Of a DNA stretch of 64,000 nucleotides, positions 15,099 through 59,932 are shown piece after piece (within the stretch, counting starts at the first letter, position 1; every line of letters starts with the position of its first letter). A program made the position numbers and the translations under genes. The notes beneath the pieces were generated by a model, which was not told the origin of the DNA, made no database searches, and saw nothing but the letters and a program-made list of their open reading frames with translations. Location: assembly GCF_000374025.1 (NCBI RefSeq), contig NZ_KB893173.1, positions 372,001-436,000 on the forward strand, read 5' to 3'. The stretch is from Spirosoma panaciterrae DSM 21099. Its GTDB lineage: Bacteria > Bacteroidota > Bacteroidia > Cytophagales > Spirosomataceae.

Positions 15099-15110
15099 GC
15101 AGTCCGGTCC

Positions 15111-15180
15111 GAGGAGCGAGAAGAGTTGGTAAAGAAAATATCGCTTTACCAACTCTTCTCGCTCCTCGCTCCTCGCTCCT
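15111..15180. repeat. Iterated-word fold-back structure between comA and dedA
   Basis: A perfect 24-bp inverted repeat (15111-15134 with 15144-15167) around a 9-base loop. The arms are built from 7-base words of the type AGGAGCG, and the pyrimidine arm carries two further word copies to 15180. It fills nearly the whole spacer and ends 5 bases before the dedA ATG. The purine arm comes first in the transcript. It may end comA transcription or control dedA translation. Confidence 0.85.
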
Positions 15181-15185
15181 ATTTT

Positions 15186-22739: not shown

Positions 22740-22813
22740 TGGAGAATATCGGATTCGAACCGATGGCCTCTACAATGCCATTGTAGCGCTCTAGCCAACT
22801 GAGCTAATCCCCC
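22740..22813 (-). tRNA. tRNA-Ala (GGC)
   Basis: The minus strand folds into a complete cloverleaf. The acceptor stem GGGGGAT pairs with ATTCTCC (with G-U pairs), the D arm is TTAGCTCAGTTGGCTAGAGC, and the anticodon stem CTACA/TGTAG encloses ATGGCAT, giving anticodon GGC. The T arm contains GGTTCGAATCC. Discriminator base is A; CCA is not encoded. It reads the alanine codon GCC. Confidence 0.96.
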
Positions 22814-26271: not shown

Positions 26272-26276
26272 ACTAA

Positions 26277-26420
26277 GTTGTCAAGCGTGGTTGAAGCTTG
26301 TCAGGAGATGGTCAAGTGTAGTCAAAAATGGTCAAGTTTAGTCAGGTGTAATCGTAATAACCACTCTTGACCATAACCTGACACTTCTTGACTATGCCTG
26401 ACTACACTTGGCCATAACCA
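26277..26420. repeat. Phased GTCARG fold-back array upstream of tex
   Basis: Seven GTCARG-like units on the plus strand (starts 26280, 26290, 26300, 26311, 26321, 26331, 26341) face five inverted units (CYTGRC starts 26366, 26377, 26387, 26397, 26407). The repeat distance is 10-11 bases, one helical turn. In the tex transcript the purine-rich array comes first and the pyrimidine-rich array ends 5 bases before the ATG. Confidence 0.85.
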
Positions 26421-26463
26421 GAAAATTTCAACCCGTAAAAATGGCGCTGGAAACTGATAGGGC

Positions 26464-26496
26464 AAAAAAAAACATGCCTTGAGGCATGTTTTTTTC
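26464..26496 (-). terminator. Terminator of the cold-shock gene
   Basis: AAAAAAACATGCCT pairs with AGGCATGTTTTTTT around TG, 26 bases past the stop. Confidence 0.92.
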
Positions 26497-26521: not shown

Positions 26522-26713
26522 TTAAGCTATTTCGACATTAACGGCGTTTAAGCCTTTCCGTCCACGCTCGACATTAAATTTCACTTTGTCGTTTTCGCGG
26601 ATTTGGTCGATGAGGCCAGTAGCATGTACAAAAATATCTTCGCCACCTTCATCGGGTTTAATGAAGCCAAACCCTTTGGTTTCATTAAAGAATTTTACAG
26701 TTCCTGTTTGCAT
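26522..26713 (-). CDS. Cold-shock domain protein
   Basis: A 63-residue OB-fold RNA chaperone of the CspA family, which melts RNA structure. Both RNA-binding motifs are present: KGFGFIKP (RNP1) and DIFVHATG (RNP2), within VKFFNETKGFGFIKPDEGG. It is monocistronic, with its own terminator and a leader of at least 100 bases, which in this family often carries cold-responsive control; no specific fold could be assigned here. Confidence 0.96.
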   Translation of the reverse strand: MQTGTVKFFNETKGFGFIKPDEGGEDIFVHATGLIDQIRENDKVKFNVERGRKGLNAVNVEIA

Positions 26714-48776: not shown

Positions 48777-48793
48777 AGGAAGAAAAATAAAAT

Positions 48794-49931: not shown

Positions 49932-50792
49932 CTACTCTTCCAGCAACAACAGCAACGAGCTATGGTCTAACTCCCCATTTCCCTTATTGACGGCGGCTTC
50001 CATCTGCTCGGCTACCAGTGCTGTGCCTTTCAATGGAACCGAAAATTCTTCGCCCGTTTGCAGGGCGATACCCATATCTTTTTTGTGCAGCTTGATTTTG
50101 AAACCGGGCTTAAAATTCCGGTCGATCATGCGCTTGCCGTGAAGGTCGAGAATTCGGCTTTGGGCAAATCCACCCAACAGCACCTCCCGCATCTTTTCGA
50201 GATTAACTCCCGCTTTCGACGCCAGCGCAAACGCTTCCACAACTGCCTGGATGGTAATACCCACAATCATCTGATTACACGCCTTTGTGGTTTGCCCCGC
50301 ACCGGGTTCGCCAATATGAACAATGTTTTTGCCCATCGCCTGAAACAAAGGCAACGCCCGATTAAAAGCCGATTCGCTTCCACCAACCATAATGGACAAT
50401 GAAGCCGATTCCGCCCCTACCTGCCCGCCCGATACGGGTGCATCCAGAGCCTCTACGCCTTTAGCCTGCATGGATTGATAAATGCCCCGAGCAGTAGCCG
50501 GCGCAATCGTCGACATATCAATAAACAAAGCTCCCGACTGAATACCGGCCAAAACCCCTTCCGGTCCATTCACTACCTGATCGACATCGGGCGAATCGGG
50601 CAACATGGTGATGATTACGTCTGAATGCCCGGCAAGTGCTTTGCTCGTCGGGTGCGTCTGCGCCCCAGCCTCTACCAGTTCGGGAGCAGCTTTGCTTCCC
50701 TCCAGAACAGCTACCGGATAACCGGCTTTCAGCAAATTCAGGGCCATCGGTTTGCCCATAATCCCCAATCCAATAAATCCTATTTTATCCAT
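49932..50792 (-). CDS. garR: 2-hydroxy-3-oxopropionate (tartronate semialdehyde) reductase-type dehydrogenase
   Basis: A 286-residue beta-hydroxyacid dehydrogenase. The nucleotide fold opens with GFIGLGIMGKPMALNLLKAG. The substrate motif DAPVSGGQVGAESASLSIMVGG and the catalytic lysine in AGQTTKACNQMIVG are present. In this cluster it would reduce tartronate semialdehyde, made by the HpcH aldolase, to D-glycerate. It could also act on 3-hydroxyisobutyrate, and only context points to GarR. Its start lies 3 bases after a fold-back repeat that fills the spacer to gntP. Confidence 0.82.
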   Translation of the reverse strand: MDKIGFIGLGIMGKPMALNLLKAGYPVAVLEGSKAAPELVEAGAQTHPTSKALAGHSDVIITMLPDSPDVDQVVNGPEGVLAGIQSGALFIDMSTIAPATARGIYQSMQAKGVEALDAPVSGGQVGAESASLSIMVGGSESAFNRALPLFQAMGKNIVHIGEPGAGQTTKACNQMIVGITIQAVVEAFALASKAGVNLEKMREVLLGGFAQSRILDLHGKRMIDRNFKPGFKIKLHKKDMGIALQTGEEFSVPLKGTALVAEQMEAAVNKGNGELDHSSLLLLLEE

Positions 50793-50795
50793 ATT

Positions 50796-50888
50796 AAAGA
50801 GTGAAAGAGTGAATGAGCGAAAGAGTGATTGAGTGAACGAGTTAAGGTTTTAGTGATAGCAATTCGCTCTTTCACTCTTTCGCTCTTT
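50796..50888. repeat. Iterated 8-bp fold-back structure between gntP and garR
   Basis: The plus strand reads six consecutive 8-base words of type AAAGAGTG (50796-50843), followed by a spacer and the inverse words TTCGCTCTTTCACTCTTTCG (from 50863). Arms of 26 bases (50796-50821, 50863-50888) pair with two or three mismatches. It covers the whole spacer, including part of the gntP stop. In the transcript the purine arm comes first and the pyrimidine arm ends 3 bases before the garR ATG. Confidence 0.85.
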
Positions 50889-52332
50889 ATATTAGCGGAA
50901 ACAATTGTGCGGCAATCATGATGACGACAAGACCTGTCAGCCCCATGACTACCAGCAGGGGTGAAATTGTTTTTAATGCCTCCTGCTCGGTAAGATTACT
51001 GAGTTTGCAAACGATCCAGAATCCCGCGTCGTTCATCCACGGAACCAGTTTTGAACCACATCCAATAGCCAGCCCCAGATAGAGTGGATGAAACCCCAGG
51101 CTGGCATTACTGGCCATCCCCGACAGAATGCCCGAAGCGGTGATTAAGGCTACCGTTGCTGAGCCCTGCGCCGTCCGCACAACGGCGGCAATAAAGAATG
51201 CCATCGGAATCAGGGCCATCTGATAGTCTTTGGTCATATCGGCAATGCGGGCACTGATACCCGTTTGTTGCAACATGCCCCCAAAAGCGCCACCGGCCGC
51301 CGTAATCAGAATAATACCTCCCCCGCTCATAAGGGCTGCCTGCACAAAGGGAGTCAACCCTTCTTTACCGCTTTTCTTTTGTCGGGCCAGTATCAGTAAG
51401 GCAACAATGCCCCCCGAAACCACAGCGATATTTTTGTCCCCAACGAATTTGATCAGGCGGATTAACGTCAACAAAAAGGGCGATTCGGTTAAGGGAACAC
51501 CGGGCGTAGCCATAGCCGTAATGGCCGTGTCGGCACAGATAAAAACAAGCGGAATAAGAACGGGCAACAACGATACACCCAGACCCGGCAGTTGTTTATC
51601 GTCTTTAGCGGCAATGGCTTTAATATCGTCCAGCCGGGCATCCATGGCATCGCGTAGGGGCGTAGGCCATTTCCTGTTTGCCCAGAGCGCAAATAAATAA
51701 CCACTCGTGATGGTCATGAGCCCTACAATTGTCCCACCAATCATCATCATGCCAATCGGGATATGCATTTCGCCTACCAGAAACAAGGGCCCCGGTGCTG
51801 GCGGAACCAATGAGTTTGCCATGGCCGCACCAGCCATAATACACAGTACCAGCAGCAGGTAGTTTTTTCCAATTCGTAAGGTCATGGCTTTCGCCAGCGG
51901 CATCATCAGAAAAATAACCGTGTCAAAAAAAACTGGGATCCCGATGAAAAAACTACTTACCAGAAAGGCTATGGGTGCCCGATCAACGCCCGTGACGCGG
52001 AGCATCGACCGGATGATCCGTTCGGCGGCTCCGCTTTCGAGCATGCATTTGCCGATAATAGCGGCCATGGCAATGAGGATACCGATTTTTCCGCAGGTAG
52101 CGCCGAACTCGGTGGCTATACGTTCCCCAATGTTCTTTTTTGCCAGAGCGGCAGCGGCTGCCGGGGCCGTTCCTTTGGCGATAGCAAACTGTTCAATGGC
52201 CGATGCGGGGGTCATCAACGCAACGACAAAAGCGCCCAGCAAAAGCGCCAGAAAAGGATGTAGTTTCAGGCCAATGATCCCACCGACCACGATTACGACA
52301 CCAACAGCTAAGATCAATAAAGGGTCTGTCAT
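50887..52332 (-). CDS. GntP-family gluconate/organic acid:H+ symporter
   Basis: A 481-residue polytopic permease with about 13 hydrophobic segments. The family features are visible: LKLHPFLALLLGAFVVALM at the start, FFIGIPVFFDTVIFLMMPLAKAM, ANSLVPPAPGPLFLV and MLQQTGISARIADM. GntP proteins import gluconate or related sugar acids with protons; here the likely cargo is glucarate or galactarate because of the neighbours. It lies between the aldolase and the reductase genes, with spacers of 116 and 94 bases that both contain stems. Confidence 0.92.
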   Translation of the reverse strand: MTDPLLILAVGVVIVVGGIIGLKLHPFLALLLGAFVVALMTPASAIEQFAIAKGTAPAAAAALAKKNIGERIATEFGATCGKIGILIAMAAIIGKCMLESGAAERIIRSMLRVTGVDRAPIAFLVSSFFIGIPVFFDTVIFLMMPLAKAMTLRIGKNYLLLVLCIMAGAAMANSLVPPAPGPLFLVGEMHIPIGMMMIGGTIVGLMTITSGYLFALWANRKWPTPLRDAMDARLDDIKAIAAKDDKQLPGLGVSLLPVLIPLVFICADTAITAMATPGVPLTESPFLLTLIRLIKFVGDKNIAVVSGGIVALLILARQKKSGKEGLTPFVQAALMSGGGIILITAAGGAFGGMLQQTGISARIADMTKDYQMALIPMAFFIAAVVRTAQGSATVALITASGILSGMASNASLGFHPLYLGLAIGCGSKLVPWMNDAGFWIVCKLSNLTEQEALKTISPLLVVMGLTGLVVIMIAAQLFPLI

Positions 52333-56083: not shown

Positions 56084-56090
56084 AAAAAAG

Positions 56091-56152
56091 GTGAAGGGCA
56101 AAGGGCAGGGGTCGAAGAGCATAGCTTATGCCCCCTACCCTTCGCCCTTTGC
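56091..56152. repeat. Iterated 7-bp fold-back structure between the CBS gene and nadK
   Basis: The plus strand reads GTGAAGGGCAAAGGGCAGGG and inversely CCCTACCCTTCGCCCTTTGC further right. The units are 7 bases long (GAAGGGC, AAAGGGC). Arms of about 23 bases pair with five mismatches, four of them transitions. In the minus-strand transcript the purine arm is first and the pyrimidine arm ends 7 bases before the nadK ATG. It fills the spacer. Confidence 0.75.
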
Positions 56153-56156
56153 TAAT

Positions 56157-59883: not shown

Positions 59884-59932
59884 GAAAACAAAGCGTCCCG
59901 AAAACCTGGAGCTTTCGGGACGCTTTGTTTTC
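59884..59932. terminator. Bidirectional terminator
   Basis: A perfect 20-bp stem from the arm GAAAACAAAGCGTCCCGAAA and its exact inverse, around a 9-base loop, between two convergent genes. A and T runs on both sides make it function in both directions. Confidence 0.93.

Follow-up and report, generated by a model that had tools for sequence, protein, structure and literature searches.

Word repeats in bacterial spacers

The closest described relatives of the elements reported here are the heptamer repeats of Xanthomonas and Nostoc. In these genomes, spacers carry arrays of GGGAATC or GGGGA(C/T)T, with one G-run word type per genome, and two Xanthomonas genomes hold 70 and 75 inverted heptamer pairs (PMC4692102). 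The G-rich heptamer lies mostly on the coding strand 0-50 bp after stops and on the non-coding strand 0-50 bp before starts, is rare between divergent genes, and varies in length and sequence between close species; it has no known function and was studied as a G-quadruplex former. A second heptamer, TAACTGA, forms arrays between genes in Beggiatoaceae, Cyanobacteria and five Bacteroidetes; some of these overlap the upstream stop and close all three frames, and a translational role has been suggested (PMC4679880).

We describe a related class of elements in Spirosoma, starting from a window of 64,000 nt in the 8.13 Mb draft genome of Spirosoma panaciterrae DSM 21099 (G000, window at C2:372001-436000) and using two Spirosoma relatives, G001 and G021, for comparison. 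Like the Xanthomonas and Nostoc heptamers (PMC4692102), these elements are arrays of short words arranged in inverted pairs in spacers, with the G-rich arm by the stop and its complement by the start, few copies between divergent genes and fast turnover. They differ in that a single Spirosoma genome carries many word families, and different families can occupy the same orthologous site. They also lack a GGGNATC-like, quadruplex-capable word: of 71 word-periodic elements, 55 are free of GGG in both arms, and an arm with four GGG runs occurs in none. Quadruplex formation therefore cannot be the common cause. Thus the earlier note on this DNA, which knew of no described element of this form, went too far, given that inverted heptamer arrays of the same polarity are on record (PMC4692102). 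What the Spirosoma class adds to them, to judge from sequence comparison, is the many word families and the apparent family swaps at orthologous sites.

The TAACTGA repeats share position and perhaps frame closure with the Spirosoma hairpins, but they consist of one word and are direct repeats (169 sets versus one indirect in the main genome; PMC4679880). REP and BIME elements are likewise extragenic, palindromic, multi-copy, near gene ends and found inside operons. REP elements, however, have a short consensus of about 14-40 nt (PMC12306157). The Spirosoma class has no such consensus, as words differ per locus and at some orthologous sites, and its arms consist of repeated words (stem length averages 29 nt over 29 periodic elements). 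Intrastrand triplex motifs are also fold-back motifs repeated in bacterial spacers, which their authors link to local instability, but they require a third strand segment and stems of 6-15 nt (PMC4666352). A literature search covering mostly journals outside subscription gave, among the papers listed, none on such elements in Cytophagales, and no occurrence of any of six word strings.

A word hairpin between gntP and garR

The element that drew attention to the class fills the spacer between two genes on the minus strand:

50795..50889, no strand: AAAGAGTG-word hairpin filling the gntP-garR spacer; arms 50795-50821 and 50863-50889, 93% complementary
50887..52332, minus strand: GntP-family permease gene (PF02447), upstream of the hairpin; its TAA stop, 50887-50889, lies in the hairpin foot
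49932..50792, minus strand: garR-like reductase gene (3-hydroxyisobutyrate dehydrogenase type; PF03446, PF14833), downstream of the hairpin; ATG at 50790-50792

One foot of the hairpin thus includes the permease stop, and the other end lies 2-3 nt from the reductase ATG. The words recur with period 8, in seven in-register copies at 50796-50888, and the periodicity of the paired arms is significant (p 0.005). Read on the plus strand, the left side, with six to seven 8-bp words, is richer in words than the right, and because of this surplus the arms pair in several registers, a pattern such as slippage would leave. The closest named relative of the garR protein is that of Spirosoma sp. 48-14 (95%).

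Three further loci of the window carry inverted repeats, listed here together with a terminator-like hairpin:

15110..15180, no strand: GAGGAGC/GAGAAG hairpin; perfect 25-bp arms 15110-15134 and 15144-15168
26280..26425, no strand: hairpin of GTCA-type 10-bp words in the leader of a Tex-like gene, from inverted repeat and folding
26466..26495, minus strand: terminator-like hairpin of the cold-shock gene, present also in G001 and G021 and separate from the word hairpin
56086..56150, no strand: AGGGCAA-word hairpin between a CBS-domain gene and an NAD-kinase gene, from inverted repeat and folding

The earlier note had proposed that four hairpins share one design, and inverted repeats are indeed present at all four. 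On the transcribed strand they fold at -37.2 kcal/mol (z -7.7; 15110), -53.0 kcal/mol (z -8.7; 26280), -49.1 kcal/mol (z -4.7, with some bases cut from one end; 50795) and -43.2 kcal/mol (z -6.9; 56086), and at each locus 0 of 200 shuffles were as stable. As claimed, three of them fill spacers between co-directional genes (15099-15185, 50793-50886 and 56084-56156). The one at 26277-26420 lies behind the cold-shock gene (26522-26713) and its terminator and does not fill its spacer. Of the four, the gntP-garR element alone shows word repetition at a fixed period with statistical clarity. The paired arms at 15110-15168 show no periodicity by test (p 0.28), and about two extra CGCTCCT words lie on the 3' side of this hairpin, partly in an unpaired 3' tail. 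At the other two loci, words recur by reading, with 94% copies spaced 20 at 26280-26425; neither received an automatic score, since the best repeat taken at 26272 was the terminator at 26466-26495, and the 56086 element fell outside its called spacer through a wrong gene start. An Rfam scan of the whole window at the gathering threshold returned only a tRNA (22740-22813), with no match at the hairpin loci. Elsewhere in the window, a terminator-like hairpin between convergent genes (59884-59932) differs in its stem letters among G000, G001 and G021 while its pairing stays.

A genome-wide class with many word families

To place these hairpins we scanned 1.02 Mb of G000, made up of 39 of 40 grid stretches (one was dropped for overlap), 180 kb of neighbouring sequence and the window. 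Genes were called with our own ORF scorer and not taken from annotation, so some spacers are wrong; the NAD-kinase start (56083) was corrected by hand for reading the window, and the automatic spacer tables keep the wrong start. Among the 618 spacers measuring 25 nt or more, 152 hold a strong inverted repeat (score of 18 or higher), versus 4.4 per dinucleotide-shuffle set; this gapped score includes both arms of a hairpin with a short loop, so that the threshold stands for a shorter arm in such hairpins, whose "arms" include half the loop, and shuffles were scored in the same way. Of these repeats, 32 are word-periodic (p<=0.01) versus about 3 expected, by a test that uses the better of the two arms and that about 2% of repeats pass by chance. 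Their periods are 8 (18 elements), 7 (8), 9 (3) and 10 (3). The enrichment over shuffled spacers that the earlier note anticipated is therefore borne out.

Over 2.44 Mb from twelve Spirosoma genomes, 1485 spacers hold 424 inverted repeats, 71 of them periodic, with about 8 expected by chance. These 71 include the window and syntenic blocks; 12 come from the G001 and G021 blocks, and some sites are counted in more than one species. G000 contributes 30 here versus 32 in the earlier run, as the random shuffles differ.

The elements fall into word families, which we assigned by crude regular expressions, taking the first match. Family A (AAAGAGTG) has 23 of the 71 elements, C (TAGGATG/TATGATG) 9, J (AATAATG) 8, H (GTCA) 5, K (CGGTTTA) 4 and B (AATGATTG) 3; D, E, F and N have 2 each, and 11 elements stay outside any family. 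In family A, the 8-mer word is the part held in common. A three-word pattern of this family, GAGYGAAWGAGYGAAWGAGYG, matches 119 + 107 = 226 times in G000, with no match for the reversed control, and a DNA search of the genome itself, in which 40 of 166 candidates were scored, gave at least 87 match rows. The statement that the four hairpins are not copies of one mobile repeat thus holds insofar as words differ by locus, and fails insofar as the gntP-garR element belongs to this large family. Extrapolated from the 12 A-family elements in the 1.02 Mb sample, one word family would occupy roughly a hundred loci in G000. Of 150 genomes sampled from the taxonomic family (18 Spirosoma among those searched), 68 contain the pattern; of 395 sampled from the phylum, 7 do, so that the distribution of the word is patchy. 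Within the genus, counts cover 18 of 36 Spirosoma genomes; the pattern is nearly absent (0 to 2 matches) in G009, G014, G019 and G034 and frequent in most other Spirosoma searched.

Loops have no such common part. Among 71 loops, no 6- or 7-mer is shared beyond what shuffled loops give. A loop core CTGACGC/GCGTCAG, suggested by Larkinella garR spacers and some Spirosoma loops, was rejected on the same comparison (top 7-mer in 6 of 71, null maximum 6). In sum, one architecture built from words that differ by locus unites these elements into a class, and they are far more numerous than chance would give.

G000 also carries long palindromes without periodicity, MITE- or REP-like, of one type (TTTTTGTCATCCCGACGCAGGAGGGATCTTCGG with variants) that recurs at six places:

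L009:13349-13436, L012:18218-18304, L025:10406-10496: TTTTTGTCATCCCGACGCAGGAGGGATCTTCGG-type palindromes
L041:1037-1123, L044:1935-2029, L044:16711-16797: TTTTTGTCATCCCGACGCAGGAGGGATCTTCGG-type palindromes

Palindromes of a GTAGAGACGC...GCGTCTCTAC type lie at L027:13299-13410 and L024:1373-1458, and a similar palindrome is found in G021 at C1:425636, where G000 has word repeats.

Position and polarity

The earlier note proposed an intercistronic role, to be given up if convergent spacers were similarly occupied. They are: across the twelve genomes, periodic elements occur in 10 of 242 convergent spacers and in 56 of 944 co-directional ones (29/493 on the plus and 27/451 on the minus strand), which is no difference (p 0.35). 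Only divergent spacers are depleted (5/299, p 0.0035). Of the shared architecture, what survives is a genome-wide class above chance whose words change at some orthologous sites; a specific intercistronic role is not supported.

Where in the spacer do the hairpins sit? In co-directional spacers, the 5' foot lies a median of 4 nt after the stop (at most 10 nt in 44/56), and the 3' foot a median of 15 nt before the start (at most 10 nt in 20/56). The rule that the pyrimidine-rich arm ends 3-7 nt before a start codon is thus not general, as it applies to 8 of 56; the tight side is the stop. Of 10 elements between convergent genes, 9 have each foot no more than 15 nt from a gene end. Where more than 100 nt are to spare (n=10), 8 elements are nearer the stop and 6 lie within 15 nt of it, with 1 within 15 nt of the start. 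These distances, together with the placement in long spacers, make this an element of gene 3' ends that also fills short intercistronic spacers, and not one centred on start codons.

The purine-first polarity reported earlier is real, and it is mute on the direction of transcription. Among periodic elements, a purine-rich 5' arm (>0.55) is found in 44 of 56 between co-directional genes, in 9 of 10 between convergent genes and in 4 of 5 between divergent ones, and the mean G-over-C skew of this arm is 0.60-0.68 in all three gene orientations; in non-periodic inverted repeats the skew is -0.09 to 0.08. Since an inverted repeat reads identically on either strand, gene direction has no bearing on the polarity. 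No feature of the class is more regular than this G-before-C polarity, and none is explained less well.

All three reading frames are closed by the 5' arm in 28 of 56 cases versus 10.6 from shuffles, and by the 3' arm in 5 versus 2.2; many of these cases are probably supplied by a few word families.

Turnover between species

G001 and G021 are syntenic with the window, G021 over only part of it. At the 50793 site, all three species have AAAGAGTG hairpins in which word order differs and the arms are largely complementary. At 26272, the three hairpins are built from different GTCA-type words between well conserved flanks. The 56084 site holds AGGGCAA words in G000, a GGGCGAGGGG-like hairpin in G021 and a GTTTACAG-word hairpin in G001. 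The 15099 hairpin of G000 faces a G001 spacer without a significant inverted repeat (G021 lacks coverage there), and at 48777 G021 alone has a hairpin.

We extended the comparison to 182 orthologous spacers between G000 and G001 and 149 between G000 and G021. By reading, G021 has AATAATG words at C2:471699 and C1:343247, where two species have TATGATG-type words; at C1:425636, GGGCATA words (below the scan threshold) stand against a GTAGAGACGC palindrome. These apparent swaps were recognised by eye at a handful of sites, with no blinded rule. The gntP-garR spacer was followed across genera in 41 rows (29 of 80 found loci plus others, at least four genomes appearing twice). It carries AAAGAGTG hairpins in the window, L049/L130 and L131; CGGTTTA hairpins in Larkinella (L052, L054, L065); CACAAAGG words in L063; AAGCTGTAGGCTTTAAGCC-like words in Persicitalea (L106); and a single arm like CTCTGTGGCTCTGCGT in Runella (L051, L056, L059). 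In some relatives the spacer is only about 8-50 nt long (e.g. L058, L061, L081, L134, L137). Taken together, these readings support the view that at some orthologous sites the hairpin architecture stays while the words change.

Orthologous co-directional spacers of G000 and G001 tend to be occupied together (11 in both, 7 and 5 in one, 66 in none; p 2.5e-6), and shared descent suffices for most of this. Same-site occupancy by unrelated sequence exceeds background gain marginally in co-directional spacers (p 0.055 for G000/G001, p 0.021 for G000/G021), and G001/G021 has none among 9 co-directional and 8 convergent double occupancies, by an automatic count that dropped long spacers and missed swaps read by hand.

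Read at three sites, a hairpin can be gained or lost as a unit in a short spacer behind a stop codon. Without its hairpin, the filled spacer at C2:334797 measures 25 nt versus 21 nt in the orthologous empty one; at C2:420777, 34 nt versus 17 and 28 nt; at C2:461448, 6 and 2 nt in two species versus 17 nt. Four of eight filled/empty rows do not support simple addition. Two of these are long spacers; at C2:506810 the filled spacer (76) is shorter than the empty one (105), and at C2:471699 a weak hairpin can be read in the relatives that were scored as empty. No insertion duplications are evident by eye at C2:461448 and C2:420777, where flanks are highly diverged. Deletion in one species, in place of insertion in another, would also fit these comparisons.

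RNA-level or DNA-level upkeep of the arms

In the 23 A-family elements, each arm matches its own partner far better than the arms of other copies (score 16.6 versus 7.0, permutation p 0.0005). Across periodic elements, arm identity within a copy is 0.96 versus 0.82-0.84 between orthologous arms (14 species-pair comparisons); part of this gap is an effect of detection, which picks up only complementary arms. Non-periodic repeats are no different in this respect (0.98 versus 0.81-0.82, 22 comparisons), so within-copy matching is no special mark of word hairpins. Nor do the arms diverge faster on average than plain spacer, since repeat-free spacers have an orthologous identity of 0.77-0.78, and 0.87 for the closer pair.

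What then keeps the arms alike? One possibility is a functional RNA hairpin: selection would keep a stable stem after the stop, for insulation, 3' protection or the setting of translation, and leave the letters free. The large folding energies, the depletion of divergent spacers, the co-occupancy of orthologous sites and an architecture that outlives its sequence at some of them all speak for this reading. Yet convergent spacers are as often occupied, several relatives have the same operon with an empty short spacer, and shared descent alone yields co-occupancy. In addition, if the RNA stem were kept, G-U should outnumber A-C among mismatches on the transcribed strand. Internal stem mismatches of periodic co-directional elements show no such preference (48 G-U versus 53 A-C, a comparison of moderate power), nor do all co-directional inverted repeats from more genomes under stricter internal mismatches (143 versus 124, p 0.27; 122 versus 95, p 0.077, in a smaller first dataset). 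Only non-periodic co-directional repeats lean to G-U (95 versus 71, p 0.07). RNA-level selection on the periodic elements is thus not supported, and we consider the functional-RNA reading unlikely, though with a substantial chance of being right; any regulatory role of the word hairpins is unproven. We lean instead towards arms that are repaired at the DNA level, because arms match within a copy and G-U is not in excess over A-C.

Could the hairpins be ordinary mobile palindromes of REP or MITE type, moved by a transposase such as RAYT? REP elements are linked to RAYT, the Spirosoma elements form a dispersed extragenic family whose presence differs between close species, and Y1-transposase genes (PF01797, RAYT or IS200 type) occur in 29 of 36 genomes of the genus. 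However, G006, G023 and G031 have no PF01797 match and still hold 63, 89 and 24 GAGYGAAWGAGYGAAWGAGYG matches, which led us to reject RAYT mobilisation as a requirement; a dependence on RAYT is not seen in the word hairpins. Moreover, copies share words and not loops, and the single strong Y1 gene of G000 (L280) has, at a distance of about 1 kb, a palindrome that belongs to another family. We found no mobilising or copying enzyme for the word hairpins, and regard a REP/MITE origin as improbable. The L280 palindrome itself (L280:2885-2970) contains ACACGGGTGGGAACCC, resembles a GTAACGCGGGTGGAAACCCGC palindrome at C1:327034 in G001, and perhaps makes with its Y1 gene a REP/RAYT pair separate from the word hairpins. 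Intrinsic, bidirectional terminators would also lie near stop codons, between convergent genes included, but a TTTT at the 3' foot follows 1 of 54 periodic elements versus 34 of 169 non-periodic ones. The arms are word arrays, and the more terminator-like non-periodic repeats are distributed differently (119/242 convergent versus 170/944 co-directional spacers). We rejected this reading on the missing U-run and leave it a very small chance. As for chance or simple low-complexity sequence, the arms are compositionally skewed, but the dinucleotide shuffles already refute such an origin, to which we give practically no weight.

A model for the word hairpins and its meaning

The explanation that we tentatively prefer, at somewhat less than an even chance, is a fast-turnover class of intergenic word palindromes, anchored at gene 3' ends, whose arms would be kept complementary largely at the DNA level. 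Each element is an inverted repeat, typically with short arrays of a 7-10 bp word as arms, and a genome carries several word families. Within a copy, the arms are complementary while words drift, change number or apparently give way to another family. The anatomy of the hairpins, their anchoring at stops, the family structure and the match between arms of one copy are established by the comparisons above. Beyond these, we envision that word slippage, combined with copying between the arms by fold-back or template switching, mainly keeps the arms alike, and that a copying process spreads words between loci. In the mRNA, the element would form a very stable stem with one foot at the stop codon upstream and, if the spacer is tight, the other at the start codon that follows. 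Looping out the spacer in this manner may hold stop and start close and make insertion tolerable inside operons, and protection of the 3' end of the upstream message is a possible by-product.

A bolder variant, to which we grant only a slight chance, is strand-specific DNA writing with a telomere-like logic, in which C-poor words of 7-10 nt would be laid behind stop codons and copied back by fold-back synthesis. Were it true, it would account for G before C whatever the gene orientation, for iterated words, for arms that match and for the swaps of whole word families at a fixed site, and the heptamers of Xanthomonas would represent a branch of this process.

If our preferred reading of word palindromes kept alike at the DNA level is right, about one in twenty sampled spacers (71/1485) would hold an element with a lasting shape and replaceable letters. 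Methods based on sequence conservation would therefore miss such elements, as their letters are replaced while the shape stays. The unexplained heptamer repeats of Xanthomonas, Nostoc and Beggiatoaceae would be joined to one architecture, and the G-quadruplex reading of the Xanthomonas and Nostoc heptamers would be weakened, because the sampled Spirosoma words cannot form a quadruplex within an arm. A question also becomes testable: whether a conserved hairpin reflects RNA function or is the trace of DNA copying.
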